Positions 11,293 through 17,430 of a stretch of 64,000 bases of DNA are shown here, piece after piece (position 1 is the first letter of the stretch; the number at the start of each line of letters is the position of its first letter). The stretch is from positions 248,001 through 312,000 of the forward strand of contig NZ_JAYMGZ010000004.1 in assembly GCF_037078405.1 (NCBI RefSeq). The letters run 5' to 3'. The notes beneath the pieces are model-generated. The model was not told the DNA's origin. It did no database searches and was given only the letters and a program-made list of their open reading frames with translations. Made by a program: the position numbers and the translations under genes. This DNA comes from Haloarcula sp. DT43. GTDB taxonomy: Archaea; Halobacteriota; Halobacteria; Halobacteriales; Haloarculaceae.

Positions 11293-12408
11293 ATGGGAAT
11301 TGCTGAGTTCACGAGAGACGGTCGCGTGGTGTTGGGTGACCGACCGGGGGCAGTGGCGGTGGCCGCGGTGTGTGGCTACCTCCTGCTTGACCTGGTCGCG
11401 AAGCTCGCCGGGACAACCGTGTTCTTTCTGGGAACCAAACTGCTGGGTGGGTCGCTCACCGTGGGCTCGTTGCTCTCGATGGTGGTCGACGGACTGCTGG
11501 TCGGCCTGGCCGTCGGTCTCGCCGGCATCGGCCTGTCGATGACCTACAGCATCCTCGATTTCGCTAACTTCGCACACGGTGACACGGTGACTGCCGGGGC
11601 GTTCCTGGGGTGGGTCGCCGCGTACATCGCCGCCGGCCTCGGGACCGGCGCGCCGGTCGCCGAACTGTTCATGCTCAACTCCGGCCGGCAGTTGAGTACC
11701 GTGACGACCTTCCTGCCGGTGCTTCTCGGGCTCGTCGTCGCCGGCGTCGGGTCGGTCGGCGTCGTCTTGCTCGTGGACCGACTCACCTACCGCCCCATGC
11801 GCGATGCGGACAACATCTCCCTGCTCATCGCCTCTATCGGCGTCGCGCTCGCGCTCCGGTACCTCATCGCCTTCGTCTTCGGCACCCAGACCAGCGGGGT
11901 CGCGAGCGGCGGCCTCCGGGTGACGGTGCTGTCGACCATCTCCGTCACCGACAACGAAATCACGCTGCTCGTGGTGTCGATCCTGTTGATGCTGGGCGTC
12001 CACCTGCTCCTCCAGCGGACCAAACTCGGCAAGGCGATGCGGGCGATGGCCGACAACGAGGACCTCGCGCGAGTGACCGGGATTCCGACCGAGCGGGTCA
12101 TCCGGCTGACCTGGATTCTCGGCGGGAGCCTCGCCGGTATCGGCGGCTACCTGCTCGTTCTGGAGAGCGGCACCATCGGCTTCAACTTCGGCTGGGTTCT
12201 GCTGTTGCTCATCTTCGCCGCGGTCATCGTCGGCGGTATCGGCTCGATATACGGGGCGATGGCCGGCGGCGTCCTCATCGGACTGGTCGACAGCCTGGCG
12301 CTCATCTGGATCCCGTACGGGCTGACGCGGGCCTCGGCGTTCCTCGTGCTCATCGTCGTCCTGCTGCTTCGCCCGTCCGGCATCTTCGGGGGGGTGTCGA
12401 CGGCGTGA
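11293..12408 (+). CDS. livH: Branched-chain amino acid type ABC transporter permease LivH
   Basis: 371-residue inner-membrane permease of the LivH family with roughly nine hydrophobic segments. The family hallmarks GIGLSMTYSILDFANFAHGD and AMRAMADNEDLARVTGIPTERV are clear. It forms the importer channel with LivM. First gene of a four-gene operon; its stop codon overlaps the livM GTG start. Length is above the usual 290-310 because of an N-terminal extension of about 60 residues carrying an additional membrane segment. Substrate class (branched-chain amino acids, amides or urea) cannot be told from the permease alone. Confidence 0.92.
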   Translation: MGIAEFTRDGRVVLGDRPGAVAVAAVCGYLLLDLVAKLAGTTVFFLGTKLLGGSLTVGSLLSMVVDGLLVGLAVGLAGIGLSMTYSILDFANFAHGDTVTAGAFLGWVAAYIAAGLGTGAPVAELFMLNSGRQLSTVTTFLPVLLGLVVAGVGSVGVVLLVDRLTYRPMRDADNISLLIASIGVALALRYLIAFVFGTQTSGVASGGLRVTVLSTISVTDNEITLLVVSILLMLGVHLLLQRTKLGKAMRAMADNEDLARVTGIPTERVIRLTWILGGSLAGIGGYLLVLESGTIGFNFGWVLLLLIFAAVIVGGIGSIYGAMAGGVLIGLVDSLALIWIPYGLTRASAFLVLIVVLLLRPSGIFGGVSTA

Positions 12409-13688
12409 GCGCCGCTGACGCCGTCCGGGACCGCCTCGACGCGCTCCCGGACCTGGGGCTGGTCGCCGGCTTCGTCGTCAGCATCTGGGCAGTCATGTTC
12501 GTGCTGGCGCTGGCCGTCGGCGGCCCGCAGTGGACGAACCTCGCTGTCGGCTTCATCGGCAGCGTGACCGTCCTGATGGGCGGGTACGCTATCCTCGCGC
12601 TGGCGCTGAACCTCCAGTGGGGGTACACCGGCCTGTTCAACATCGGCATCGCGGGGTTCATGGCCGTCGGCGCGTACACGACGGCGATTCTCACCGCACC
12701 GACCGACCCGGCCGCCGGGGCGGTCCCGGGGCTCGGCCTCCCGCTGTGGGTCGGCCTCATCGGCGGCATGGCGATGGCCGCCATCATCGGCGGGCTTGCG
12801 GCCCTGCCGGCGCTCCGGCTGAAGGCCGACTACCTCGCAATCGTCACGGTCGCGTTCTCCGAAATCATCCGGCTCATCGTCAACTGGGACGGTCTGTCGG
12901 AGGTCTCGCTGTTCGGGGTACCGGTCGGTACCGGCGGCGCGACCGGCATCTCGTTCAAGTCCGCCAACGAGGTCGCGTCGGGGCTCGTCAACGGCGTCGG
13001 CCAGCCGCTCGTGACCGCCGCGGAGGGCGTCGGCGTCTCCGGGCCGAACCTGGCGAATCTCACCTATGGGCTCCTCCTCCTCCTGGTCGTAGCCGCGAGC
13101 TACTGGGTGCTCGCCCGAATCACGAACTCGCCCTTCGGCCGCGTACTGAAAGCCATCCGCGAGGACGAGACCGTGACCCAGTCGCTTGGCAAGGACACCC
13201 GGCTGTTCAAAATCAAGACGTTCATGATAGGCTGTGCGCTGATGGGGCTGGCCGGCGTCCTGTTCCGCGGACAGGCGGGCTACGTCAGCCCACAGCAGTT
13301 CCGGCCGACGATTACCTTCTACGTGTTCGCGGCGCTCATCATCGGTGGTTCCGGCTCCAACACCGGGAGCATCATCGGCGCGGCGACGTTCTCGGGGCTG
13401 CTGTTTTACCTGCCGGCGCGGCTGGGCGAGACCATCTCGCTGGGCGGCTCCGGCGGCCCCGGCAACATCGTCGAGGCGGTCGCCGGGCTCGCGTCGCTCG
13501 ACCCGTTCCCCCTGCTCGCCTACACCGTCGGCAACGTCAGCACGCTCCGGTTCGTCCTCATCGGCGTCGTACTCATCTACATCATCCAGAACCAGCCAGA
13601 GGGGCTTCTGGGTCACCGGAACGAACCCGCGACGAGCGTGAGTCTGGACCGGTCGGAGTCCAGCCCAGGAGGTGAGACTGATGAGTGA
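12405..13688 (+). CDS. livM: Branched-chain amino acid type ABC transporter permease LivM
   Basis: 427-residue partner permease. The start is GTG at 12405, overlapping the livH stop (GTGA). LivM features: NLQWGYTGLFNIGIAGFMAVGAY near residue 65, RLKADYLAIVTVAFSEI and FGRVLKAIREDETVTQSLGKDT, which is the cytoplasmic loop contacting the ATPase. A final membrane helix ends in the typical QPEGLLG. A periplasmic insert of about 50 residues (roughly 155-205) sits between the conserved blocks, as seen in haloarchaeal LivM. Confidence 0.92.
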   Translation: MSAADAVRDRLDALPDLGLVAGFVVSIWAVMFVLALAVGGPQWTNLAVGFIGSVTVLMGGYAILALALNLQWGYTGLFNIGIAGFMAVGAYTTAILTAPTDPAAGAVPGLGLPLWVGLIGGMAMAAIIGGLAALPALRLKADYLAIVTVAFSEIIRLIVNWDGLSEVSLFGVPVGTGGATGISFKSANEVASGLVNGVGQPLVTAAEGVGVSGPNLANLTYGLLLLLVVAASYWVLARITNSPFGRVLKAIREDETVTQSLGKDTRLFKIKTFMIGCALMGLAGVLFRGQAGYVSPQQFRPTITFYVFAALIIGGSGSNTGSIIGAATFSGLLFYLPARLGETISLGGSGGPGNIVEAVAGLASLDPFPLLAYTVGNVSTLRFVLIGVVLIYIIQNQPEGLLGHRNEPATSVSLDRSESSPGGETDE

Positions 13689-14511
13689 GCCCGACGCCGT
13701 GGAGCGAACGGAGACCGCCGTCACGAGCGACGCCATTGACTCGCCGCTGCTGGAAGTCGACGGCCTCCGCAAGGAGTTCGGCGGCGTCGTCGCGGTCGAC
13801 GGGGCGACGTTCTCCGTGGCTGGGGGGTCCCTGACCGGCCTCATCGGCCCCAACGGGGCCGGCAAGTCGACGACGTTCAACTGCATCACCGGCATCCACG
13901 AGCCGACCGGCGGGCGGGTCACCTTCGACGGCGAGAGCATCACCGGCCTCCCGCCGTACACGCTCGCCAACCGCGGGCTGGTCAGGACGTTCCAGATAGC
14001 CCGCGAACTCTCCGACATGACCGTCCTGGAGAACGTGATGCTCGCGCCGGGCGGACAGATAGGCGAGTCGGTCGTCCGGTCGGTCACACCGGGGCTGCGC
14101 GGCGACGTCATCAGGGACGAAACCGAGGTCCGCGACCGCGCGTGGGAGACGCTGGAATTCTTCGAAATCGACCACCTCGCCCACGAGAACGCCGGCACGC
14201 TCTCGGGCGGCCAGCGGAAACTGCTCGAGATGGCGCGGGTCCTGATGACCGACCCCGAGATGATTCTGCTGGACGAGCCGCTGGCCGGCGTCAATCCGAC
14301 GCTGGAGGAGAAGCTACTGGAGCGCATCCACGAACTCCGCCGGGAGCAGGGGCTGACCTTCCTGCTCGTCGAACACGACATGGACGTCATCATGAACAAC
14401 TGCGAACACATCATCGTCATGCACCAGGGGGGCGTCCTCGCCGAAGGGGATGCGGAGACAATCAAGTCCGACGAGCGGGTACTGGAAGCGTACCTGGGGG
14501 GTGACGTATGA
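13681..14511 (+). CDS. livG: ABC transporter ATP-binding protein LivG
   Basis: 276-residue ATPase of the importer. Walker A GPNGAGKST, LivG-type insertion FNCITGIHEPTGG and VRTFQIARELSDMTVLENVM, signature LSGGQRK, Walker B MILLDEPLAG and H-loop VEHDMDVIM are all present. The ATG at 13681 is chosen because a perfect Shine-Dalgarno sequence GGAGGTGA lies at 13669-13676; an in-frame GTG at 13672 would overlap that site. Overlaps livM by 8 bases. Confidence 0.93.
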   Translation: MSEPDAVERTETAVTSDAIDSPLLEVDGLRKEFGGVVAVDGATFSVAGGSLTGLIGPNGAGKSTTFNCITGIHEPTGGRVTFDGESITGLPPYTLANRGLVRTFQIARELSDMTVLENVMLAPGGQIGESVVRSVTPGLRGDVIRDETEVRDRAWETLEFFEIDHLAHENAGTLSGGQRKLLEMARVLMTDPEMILLDEPLAGVNPTLEEKLLERIHELRREQGLTFLLVEHDMDVIMNNCEHIIVMHQGGVLAEGDAETIKSDERVLEAYLGGDV

Positions 14512-15260
14512 GCCGCGCGACGGAGTCCGAGGCTGTCACGCTCCCCAACCCGTCAGAGCGCCTCCTCGCGATTCGGAACCTCGACGCCGGCTACGGCGAC
14601 CTGCAGGTCCTCAGTGACGTCCACATGGACGTCGCCGACGGCGAGTACGTCGTCATCGTCGGCCCGAACGGGGCTGGCAAGTCGACGGTGATGAAGTCCG
14701 TCTTCGGCCTGACGACGTACATGGGCGGGGAAGTCGTCTTCGACGGCACCGATATCAGCGAGCGCAATCCCGACGAAATCATCTACGAGGGCATCAGCTA
14801 CGTGCCCCAGACTGGCAACGTGTTCGGCTCGCTGAGCGTCCGCGAGAACCTGGAGATGGGCGCGTACATCCTCGACGAAGTTCCGGAGGACCGCATCGAG
14901 GACGTGTACGAGCGGTTCCCGATTCTCCGGGAGCGGTCCGACCAGTCGGCCGGAACGCTGTCGGGCGGCCAACAGCAGATGCTCGCCATGGGGCGGGCGC
15001 TGATGCTCGACCCCGACCTGCTGTTGCTCGACGAGCCCTCTGCCGGCCTGGCCCCGGACCTCGTCGAGGACATGTTCGACCGCATCGACCGCATCAACGA
15101 CGACGGGACGGCGGTGCTGATGGTAGAGCAAAACGCCAAGGAAGCGCTCAGGCGGTGTGACCGCGGCTACGTGCTCGTACAGGGGCAGAACCGCTACGAG
15201 GACGAGGGCTCAGTCCTGCTCAACGACGAGCAGGTCCGCCAGGACTTCCTTGGCGGATAA
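14508..15260 (+). CDS. livF: ABC transporter ATP-binding protein LivF
   Basis: 250-residue second ATPase. Walker A GPNGAGKST, signature LSGGQQQM, Walker B LLLLDEPSAGLAPDL and MVEQNAKEAL at the H-loop position mark it as LivF. ATGA overlap with livG gives translational coupling. Last gene of livHMGF; 24 bases after its stop the convergent binding-protein gene ends. Confidence 0.93.
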   Translation: MSRATESEAVTLPNPSERLLAIRNLDAGYGDLQVLSDVHMDVADGEYVVIVGPNGAGKSTVMKSVFGLTTYMGGEVVFDGTDISERNPDEIIYEGISYVPQTGNVFGSLSVRENLEMGAYILDEVPEDRIEDVYERFPILRERSDQSAGTLSGGQQQMLAMGRALMLDPDLLLLDEPSAGLAPDLVEDMFDRIDRINDDGTAVLMVEQNAKEALRRCDRGYVLVQGQNRYEDEGSVLLNDEQVRQDFLGG

Positions 15261-15284: not shown

Positions 15285-16637
15285 TTACTGGTTCATCGCG
15301 CTGTTGATTTCTGACGTGTACGAGGACTGCTGTTGCTCGAAGCCGACCTGGTTGACGATGGTGCCGCCCTCGTTCTCGAACGCGGTGGCGAACGCGTCCT
15401 GGAGCGCCTGGCCGTAGCTGTTGTTGACGTACAGCGTCGAGGCGGTCTGGGCACCGAGTTCGGACATCCCGACCTGCGCGAGAACCTGGCCCTGCAGGGC
15501 GTCGCTCGGCGGGGTGCGGAAGATGTAGTCGTCGTCTTCGAGGTTGGTAATCGTCGGCGACGTGGAGGCCGGCGAGCAGCCGACCACGCCGCTGTCGATG
15601 AGCACGTTCCTGGCGACCTGAATCGTCGTCTCCGAACTGGCCGCACCGGTGATGGAGGGGTAGCCCGCGCTGACGAGGGAGTTCGCCGCGTCGATGCCCG
15701 CCTGTGCCTGGGTCTGGGTGTCGCCGACCTGATAGTCGAACTCGAAGTCGACCTCGTCTTCGAGTTGCAGGGCCGGGAGCAACGCCGCGTCACGGATGGG
15801 CCTGCCAAGCGGCCCGAGGTCGCCGGTCTCGGGCATCAACACGCCGAACCGAACCGTCCGGCCGGCATCGCTGCCGGAGCCGCTGGGTTCCGGCTGGGGC
15901 ATGTCGTCGCCGGCGCTGAAATCGACGGTGTTGAGCGACTCGATGCCGCCGCCGTCCTGGAAGCCGAAGACCTGGTACTGCGCCGAGGCCATGTCCCCGT
16001 TGCTGTCGAAGTTGACGGCGCTCGATGCGCCCTCGTACTGGATGTTCTCGCCGGCGGCGGCCGCTTCGACGGCCGCTGGTAGCTCCGAGGGGCCGTACGA
16101 GTCGCCGCCCGGGTTGGCGACGACGCGCATGTGGTCACGGACGGCCTGCCCGTCGTTTTCGCCGGCCAGCACGTTCGCCAGAATCTGGACCGCCGTCGCG
16201 TCGTAGGCCTGGGACGTGAACACGCCGGCCTCGTCGTAGTCGAACTGGGACGTGAACTGCTCCGTGAACGTGTTGACGCCGGGCCCGGCCGCCGACGGGG
16301 CCGTGCCGCGGACGTTCGACATGTCGTTGCCGACGTTGCTGGGGAGTTCGCCGTCCTGCAGCCCGTCGGTCACGAGGATATCGGCGGCGTCGTCGCCGTA
16401 GTCGGCGTAGTAGTCCTTGAACAGTTGGACACCGCTCTGTGGGTAGCCGACGACCATCAGCACGTCGGGCGAGTCCGCACCGCCGTCGCCGCCCGACTCG
16501 GTGCCGGTCGTTCCGCCGTCGCCGCCGTCACCGCCGGTCTGTTCGGTCGAACAGCCCGCCAGTCCGCCGAGCAGACCGACTGTGCTTACCGCCCCAGTGC
16601 GCTTCAGAAACGTTCGTCGGCTGGTATCGCGACTCAT
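15285..16637 (-). CDS. Substrate-binding lipoprotein of the Liv importer, halves circularly permuted
   Basis: 450 residues, intact frame. Tat signal (SRRTFLKR) and lipobox LAGC (Cys29), then a Gly/Asp linker. The Peripla_BP_6 fold that follows is in the wrong order. Residues about 55-247 are the usual C-terminal half (PDVLMVVGYPQSGVQLFKDY, TDGLQD, FTSQAYDATAV, QYEGASSAVNFD). Residues about 261-450 are the usual N-terminal half (FGVLMPETGDLGPLG, GAASSETT ligand loop, YIFRTPPSDA). The protein stops at SEINSAMNQ, exactly where the fold would normally run on into PDVLMVVGY. The old C- and N-termini are joined by a Pro/Gly/Ser linker (about 247-260). Membership of the livHMGF system is inferred from convergence, 24 bases apart. 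Start fixed by the TATA box at 16661-16669. Confidence 0.9.
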   Translation of the reverse strand: MSRDTSRRTFLKRTGAVSTVGLLGGLAGCSTEQTGGDGGDGGTTGTESGGDGGADSPDVLMVVGYPQSGVQLFKDYYADYGDDAADILVTDGLQDGELPSNVGNDMSNVRGTAPSAAGPGVNTFTEQFTSQFDYDEAGVFTSQAYDATAVQILANVLAGENDGQAVRDHMRVVANPGGDSYGPSELPAAVEAAAAGENIQYEGASSAVNFDSNGDMASAQYQVFGFQDGGGIESLNTVDFSAGDDMPQPEPSGSGSDAGRTVRFGVLMPETGDLGPLGRPIRDAALLPALQLEDEVDFEFDYQVGDTQTQAQAGIDAANSLVSAGYPSITGAASSETTIQVARNVLIDSGVVGCSPASTSPTITNLEDDDYIFRTPPSDALQGQVLAQVGMSELGAQTASTLYVNNSYGQALQDAFATAFENEGGTIVNQVGFEQQQSSYTSEINSAMNQ

Positions 16638-16660
16638 AACAGTTACCACTGATTCGGCTC

Positions 16661-16669
16661 TTATAAAAG
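16661..16669 (-). promoter_or_regulatory. TATA box of the binding-protein gene
   Basis: CTTTTATAA on the minus strand is centred 28 bases before the ATG at 16637, giving a leaderless transcript. It shows that the permuted gene has its own, apparently functional, promoter. Confidence 0.6.
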
Positions 16670-16818: not shown

Positions 16819-17430
16819 TTATTCGACGCGACCGACGACCTTCTCGTACTCTTCGGCGACCTTGTCCCAGTTGACGACCTCGAAGAACGCGTCGATGAAG
16901 TCACCGCGGGCGGGGCCGTAGTCGTAGTAGTAGGAGTGCTCCCAGACGTCGAGCGCGAGGATGGGATGGGAGCCCCAGAGCGCGCCCTGGTCGTGCTTGC
17001 CGACCGGGACGTTGCGCAGTTGCTTGGCGACGGGGTCGTACACGAGCAGGGCCCAGCCGCCGGCGGCCGAGGCCGCGGCCTCGAACTCGCCCTTCCAGCC
17101 CTCGTAGGAGCCGAAGTCCTCCTCGATGCGGTCGAGGAGGTCCCCCTCCGGCTCGCCGCCGCCGTTGGGGTCCATGTTCTCCCAGAACAGCGTGTGGAGA
17201 TAGTGTCCACTGCCGTTGTGGGTGACGTTGCCCATCGCTCCGGCGCTCGAACCGAACTCACCGGCGTCGCGGTTCTCCGCGAGCGTCTCCTCGGCCGACG
17301 CGAGGCCGTTTACGTAGCCCTGATGGTGGGTGTCGTGGTGCCAGGTGAGCACCTGTTCGGAGATGTGAGGTTCCAGTGCGTCGTAGTCGTACGGGAGCGG
17401 TGGCAGCTCGGGGTCGGAATGTTCGGACAT
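16819..17430 (-). CDS. sod: Superoxide dismutase (Fe/Mn type)
   Basis: 203-residue cytoplasmic enzyme that dismutates superoxide. The four metal ligands are visible: H22 (EPHIS), H79 (HYLHTLFW), D161 and H165 (DVWEHSYYYDY). Haloarchaeal enzymes of this type are usually manganese-dependent. Length is normal. Transcribed alone; the photolyase gene on the same strand lies 176 bases upstream. Confidence 0.96.
   Translation of the reverse strand: MSEHSDPELPPLPYDYDALEPHISEQVLTWHHDTHHQGYVNGLASAEETLAENRDAGEFGSSAGAMGNVTHNGSGHYLHTLFWENMDPNGGGEPEGDLLDRIEEDFGSYEGWKGEFEAAASAAGGWALLVYDPVAKQLRNVPVGKHDQGALWGSHPILALDVWEHSYYYDYGPARGDFIDAFFEVVNWDKVAEEYEKVVGRVE

Follow-up and report, generated by a model that had tools for sequence, protein, structure and literature searches.

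The substrate-binding protein (SBP) encoded beside a livHMGF operon in Haloarcula sp. DT43 carries its two halves in swapped order. We consider it highly probable that this is a genuine, selected circular permutant acting as the lipid-anchored SBP of the adjacent liv-type (HAAT) importer, that the conventional order is ancestral, and that the order has changed repeatedly. The gene lies on the minus strand of a 64,000-nucleotide stretch of DNA (contig NZ_JAYMGZ010000004.1, positions 248,001 to 312,000), hereafter the window, to which coordinates refer unless another locus is named. It had been singled out in a reading of the sequence alone, which described a LivJ/Peripla_BP_6 lipoprotein with its N- and C-terminal halves exchanged.

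Results

The gene and its neighbours

The locus comprises the following features:

16662-16667, minus strand: TATA-like element TTTATA, 30 nucleotides 5' of the ATG (from sequence)
15285-16637, minus strand: circularly permuted SBP lipoprotein gene (order CP1), 450 residues; intact reading frame, order present in most genomes of the genus and in 159 of 392 Halobacteriales genomes
16551-16637, minus strand: Tat signal peptide and lipobox (RRTFLK ... LAGC29; from sequence)
16470-16550, minus strand: N-terminal tether rich in Gly, Ser and Asp, residues 30-56 (from sequence; pLDDT below 50 in the modelled part)
15918-16469, minus strand: B half (residues 57-240), C-terminal in the original fold and beginning with the lobe-2 strand PDVLMVVGYP
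15867-15917, minus strand: linker between the two original termini, about residues 241-257, SAGDDMPQPEPSGSGSD
15288-15866, minus strand: A half, the original N-terminal half, residues ~258-450, ending in TSEINSAMNQ (PF13458 positions 1-188; Foldseek matches to LivJ/LivK)
14508-15260, plus strand: livF-type ATPase, convergent with the SBP gene
13672-14511, plus strand: livG-type ATPase
12413-13688, plus strand: livM-type permease, start approximate
11293-12408, plus strand: livH-type permease

The SBP reading frame runs uninterrupted from an ATG at 16637 to a stop codon at 15285-15287 (an alternative GTG start at 16649 would give 454 residues), which, together with the TTTATA upstream, bears out the intact frame and TATA box reported from the sequence. 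The spacing of this element is that expected of a leaderless haloarchaeal transcript and suggests that a transcript from this ATG would be leaderless. The retained signal peptide and lipid anchor are likewise supported, with the PF10518 (TAT_signal) profile matching the signal region at E=0.098 only, as is the neighbouring livHMGF. Just upstream of the SBP gene, the minus-strand gene at 16819-17430, which we take from its sequence to encode superoxide dismutase, remains adjacent in the closest relatives.

Two halves in swapped order

The window protein belongs to Peripla_BP_6 by profile (81.9 bits against a cut-off of 31.7), the match falling into two stretches that depart from the conventional N-to-C order: PF13458 positions 1-188 match residues 261-449, so that the family's N-terminal half stands C-terminal here. 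Conventional relatives give two split matches, the one to query residues ~253-448 coming first on the chromosome and the one to ~55-242 following it, and the C-terminal half of the window protein, its A half beginning with AGRTVRFGVLMPETGD, aligns with residues 14-202 of Thermotoga LivK (PDB 3td9), later 3td9 residues aligning with the N-terminal half. By profile and split alignments, the blocks proposed in the sequence-only reading (55-247, then 261-450) are correct within a few residues, and the halves, compared separately, do align to LivJ-type proteins in exchanged positions. The cut site is a three-residue loop preceding the 'PD' of PDVLMVVGYP, and the old ends are joined, much as that reading had it, by a flexible linker, of 16 residues.

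Using AlphaFold2 on the mature window protein and 57 rows of permuted relatives only, we obtained one compact fold (pLDDT 86.4, pTM 0.83; a conventional relative, L146 of Halomicrococcus, gave 92.5 and 0.88), predicted to be of the two-lobe type I kind of Peripla_BP_6. The elements of the A half are modelled as E-H-E-H-E-H-E-H-E-H-E-H-E-H and those of the B half as E-H-E-H-E-H-H-H-E-H-E-E-E, and after rotation 27 of 27 agree between the permuted model and that of L146, so that the halves are indeed predicted to rebuild a single fold. Foldseek, which aligns in sequence order, matched the conventional model to 3td9 over 380 columns (TM by target 0.84) and the permuted model to the same top hit over 195 columns only (TM by target 0.42), the A half covering about 185-195 columns of LivJ/LivK structures. 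The model and a comparison of the junctions also support the proposed cut, which separates a helix from a strand of lobe 2 and falls, on the LivJ lobe boundaries, after the second helix of that lobe and before its third strand.

Distribution and selection

Most genomes of Haloarcula contain a full-length, co-linear match in the permuted order at 73-93% identity, and other genera of the same family have co-linear permuted matches at 48-74%. A profile built from 26 permuted proteins gave a single strong match (E below 1e-140) in 159 of the 392 Halobacteriales genomes sampled, across nine GTDB families, the matches listed being full-length. Looking for the swapped order in other haloarchaea, as the sequence-only reading had proposed, thus reveals not a one-off but an old and widespread haloarchaeal feature. 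CP1 is carried, among others, by Haloarcula, Halorubrum, Haladaptatus, Halorussus, Haloferax, Halobellus, Halogeometricum, Haloquadratum, Natrialba, Natronorubrum and Halospeciosus, with Haladaptatus and Halospeciosus among those that have it on finished chromosomes. No permuted homologue was found outside Halobacteriales at E<=1e-60 in 295 genomes sampled from the phylum, and a pattern scan of genome contigs covering bacteria left one bacterial hit, L169, which has the conventional order. One CP1 gene from a metagenome-assembled genome (MAG; L125:6435-7817) has a C-terminal end that diverges from the family, as if frameshifted.

The window genome contains eight other well-matched Peripla_BP_6 genes, all conventional, and no conventional orthologue of the SBP at E<=1e-110, making the window SBP the sole member of its group there. 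Compared with near relatives, dN/dS over the whole gene is about 0.09 (0.08-0.11) and is low in both halves; the gene is under purifying selection.

Three orders at one locus

In all 103 loci where livF could be scored (69 CP1, 30 conventional and 4 CP2), the SBP gene and livF converge tail-to-tail, and the window SBP is genetically linked to livHMGF. When the domain was represented by three profiles (A1, A2 and B) and every locus was scored for their arrangement, only three complete orders emerged: A1-A2-B (conventional), B-A1-A2 (CP1, that of the window) and A2-B-A1 (CP2). CP2 (L058, L059, L060 and L154/L171) occupies the same locus as CP1; its cut falls after helix 1 of lobe 1, giving the layout A(42-end)-B-linker-A(1-41), in which the A|B junction is seamless.

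Both CP1 and the conventional form occur in Halomicrococcus gelatinilyticus (L143 and L146, respectively), each with its own liv operon. A conventional SBP gene in MAG QH_7_65_31 (L067:5644-7212, the same as L147 and L223) has an in-frame stop soon after the A/B junction, its halves being otherwise intact; the stop may reflect a sequencing error, a pseudogene or a split protein.

Repeated changes of order

In a tree rooted with an outgroup and built after the halves had been restored to one order, conventional genes branch off at the base, whereas permuted genes fall into five separate groups: a Haloarcula clade that includes the window (Har), a clade containing Halorubrum (Hrr), g3, g5, and a large clade (big) in which CP2 genes occupy two separate spots. 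In a more careful tree the number of order changes was constant across bootstraps. A single clade of all permuted genes is rejected (AU p 0.005, dlnL 78), as are Hrr+big (p 0.019) and Har+Hrr (p 0.035), whereas Har+big is not (p 0.075); these AU values are optimistic because the groups were named after the first tree had been seen. An independent tree of LivHMGF likewise rejects all permuted loci as one clade (AU p 1.7e-62, dlnL 158), Hrr+big (p 5e-9) and Har/g3+big (p 9e-5), and the A-half and B-half trees, each alone, recover the same permuted clades. Conventional relatives are up to 61-65% identical per half, and the g5 protein (L040) is 72% identical to the conventional L063/L196 as against 66% to its nearest permuted relative.

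Given that permuted genes do not form one clade on either the SBP or the LivHMGF tree, the order appears to have changed more than once within Halobacteriales, from an ancestral conventional state and with CP1 arising in several clades. At least two changes are supported and there were probably three or more. The fuller scenario, in which CP1 arose by at least three independent permutations at the same loop and a second type arose at another, with all forms functional beside the same transporter, strikes us as evenly balanced between true and false.

Linkers and the likely route of permutation

All CP1 clades share the cut to within about 3 residues, in the same loop. Linkers were compared by motif and by an alignment test that is decisive only for the large CP1 clade against CP2, where spacer similarity reaches z = 13.5. 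A weak resemblance links the spacers of g3, g5 and CP2 (p 0.01-0.03), and that of the Halorubrum-containing clade bears no likeness to the others. The shared cut and the weak g3/g5/CP2 likeness would fit a smaller number of fusions than is implied by the trees. Since CP2 has the same linker as the large CP1 clade and a seamless A|B junction, the simplest reading is that both orders were trimmed from a single A-B-linker-A(-B) fusion.

The likely route would run from tandem duplication through fusion to trimming of the outer parts. A tandem origin, as suggested in the sequence-only reading, is plausible; we found no surviving intermediate (A-B-A or B-A-B) in 230 loci and no half-gene remnants beside the SBP gene in the loci examined. 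Duplication does occur at this locus, as tandem CP1 copies in Haladaptatus attest (L110:4819-7766 and L112:4967-7778); these copies fall in separate clades and hence reflect an old duplication. Further tandem pairs lie at G227:C1:890849-893629 and in other f17/g46 genomes.

Discussion

What would the permuted protein do? It would play an ordinary part, as the lipoprotein that binds substrate for a liv-type ABC importer, the ligand most likely being branched-chain or related amino acids. From the third strand of lobe 2 the chain continues to the original C-terminus, where the 16-residue linker leads back to the original N-terminus, and it finishes after the second helix of lobe 2. It would fold into an ordinary two-lobed clamshell, bind its ligand in the cleft and deliver it to LivHM. 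Held on a flexible lipid-anchored tether, the clamshell would close on an amino acid and then dock on LivHM, its attachment point being a lobe-2 loop and not the lobe-1 N-terminus. Residues S335, S355-P356-T359 and D91-G92, which would correspond to those lining the amino-acid pocket of LivJ, are invariant among CP1 proteins. The gene is presumably expressed, and the protein would dock as an ordinary SBP does. The change in docking raised as a possibility in the sequence-only reading may not follow: the flexible 27-residue tether may leave the point of attachment irrelevant and function unchanged. Tat lipoproteins of all three orders are found beside the same operon, which suggests that the position of the tether is nearly neutral, rather than that permutation suits anchored SBPs, the idea that Brautigam et al. 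raised for TpMglB-2 (PMC4990184).

The most serious challenge to repeated permutation is a single ancient event whose products only appear polyphyletic, owing to half-by-half conversion or recombination with conventional paralogues and to transfer between species. That every CP1 clade is cut in the identical loop would fit, as would the weak similarity of the g3, g5 and CP2 spacers, the survival of Har+big in the AU test on the SBP tree and the existence of genomes with both forms. However, the halves of L143 and L146 are only 48% and 54% identical, giving no sign of recent gene conversion, the A-half and B-half trees concur on the clades, the LivHMGF tree, which is immune to SBP conversion, also separates them, and the spacer of the Halorubrum clade is dissimilar. 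We therefore regard a single event as possible but rather unlikely. Less probable again, to a degree that we would call slight, is that the permuted order is ancestral in Halobacteriales and reverted several times. Counts of changes on the tree carry no direction, which leaves room for this reading, but the outgroup-rooted tree bears conventional genes at its base, solved bacterial relatives are conventional, and every return to the conventional order would require a seamless A|B loop to be restored. At the C-terminus of conventional genes, where a reversion could have left linker sequence, no such remnant was obvious.

Permutation could also reflect a change of partner, the protein having become a sensor or scavenging lipoprotein that no longer serves transport. 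Judging from the models, a tether on the other lobe could affect the docking faces; against this, the convergent place beside livF is kept in all forms and the putative pocket residues are invariant in CP1, and we think such a switch very improbable. An artefact, finally, is scarcely conceivable. The window comes from one unfinished assembly of 19 contigs, but the same order in the genus, the family and 159 sampled genomes, finished chromosomes included, excludes misassembly, while the intact frames and the low dN/dS reject a decaying pseudogene.

Glycine-betaine-binding and molybdate-binding proteins have the type II fold. Circular permutation relates the former to the latter and to CysB (PMC2395249, with OpuAC in its references), a parallel to the present case in that natural SBP-fold proteins are involved; unlike the haloarchaeal forms, these are very distant relatives (<24% identity) and not orthologues at one locus (PMC2395249). 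Closer is TpMglB-2 (Tp0684) of Treponema pallidum, assigned to 'Type Ic/Cluster Bc', a lipid-anchored and ABC-linked natural permutant of a type I SBP (PMC4990184), whose permutation, Brautigam et al. suggested, may suit anchored SBPs (PMC4990184). The window protein resembles it in being a type I SBP that is circularly permuted, lipid-anchored and linked to an ABC importer. TpMglB-2, however, belongs to a sugar-binding family, is cut in the N-lobe sheet with its three leading strands transferred to the C-terminus, and represents a type with a poorly conserved permuted part that is found in spirochaetes and Gram-positive bacteria (PMC4990184); in place of the N-lobe cut with a fourth hinge crossing that marks Type Ic, the window protein is cut in lobe 2, between helix and strand. 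With LivJ/LivK-type SBPs (PF13458; PDB 3td9, 4gnr and 1z15) it shares both halves, the pocket motifs, the liv context and the predicted elements, and differs in having the halves reordered, both termini in a lobe-2 loop and the old ends joined by a linker. Its CP2 relatives (L058, L059, L060 and L154) share the locus and the linker of the large CP1 clade and differ in cut site.

In the literature that we searched, which lay outside most subscription journals, we found nothing on permutation in LivJ-type proteins or in haloarchaea. The view that no natural permutant of this family had been described, put forward in the sequence-only reading, accordingly holds for Peripla_BP_6/LivJ in that literature; for the fold class, TpMglB-2 is a published precedent (PMC4990184). 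Natural circular permutation of SBPs is thus already known, from TpMglB-2 and OpuAC-like proteins; new are the Peripla_BP_6/LivJ family, the cut site, the recurrence and the second cut site, and this is the first archaeal case that we found.

As a rule, natural circular permutations are inferred by comparing remote relatives, when the event lies far in the past. The conventional and permuted forms described here share 55-72% identity, occupy the same locus and accompany orthologous permeases, so that natural pairs can be used to test how permutation proceeds, which cut sites are tolerated and how the position of the tether affects docking to the permease. Public annotation calls the relatives simply 'ABC transporter substrate-binding protein', and profile searches and standard annotation overlook permutations in well over a hundred genomes. 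In this one transporter gene, the chain has been re-cut repeatedly and apparently still works.
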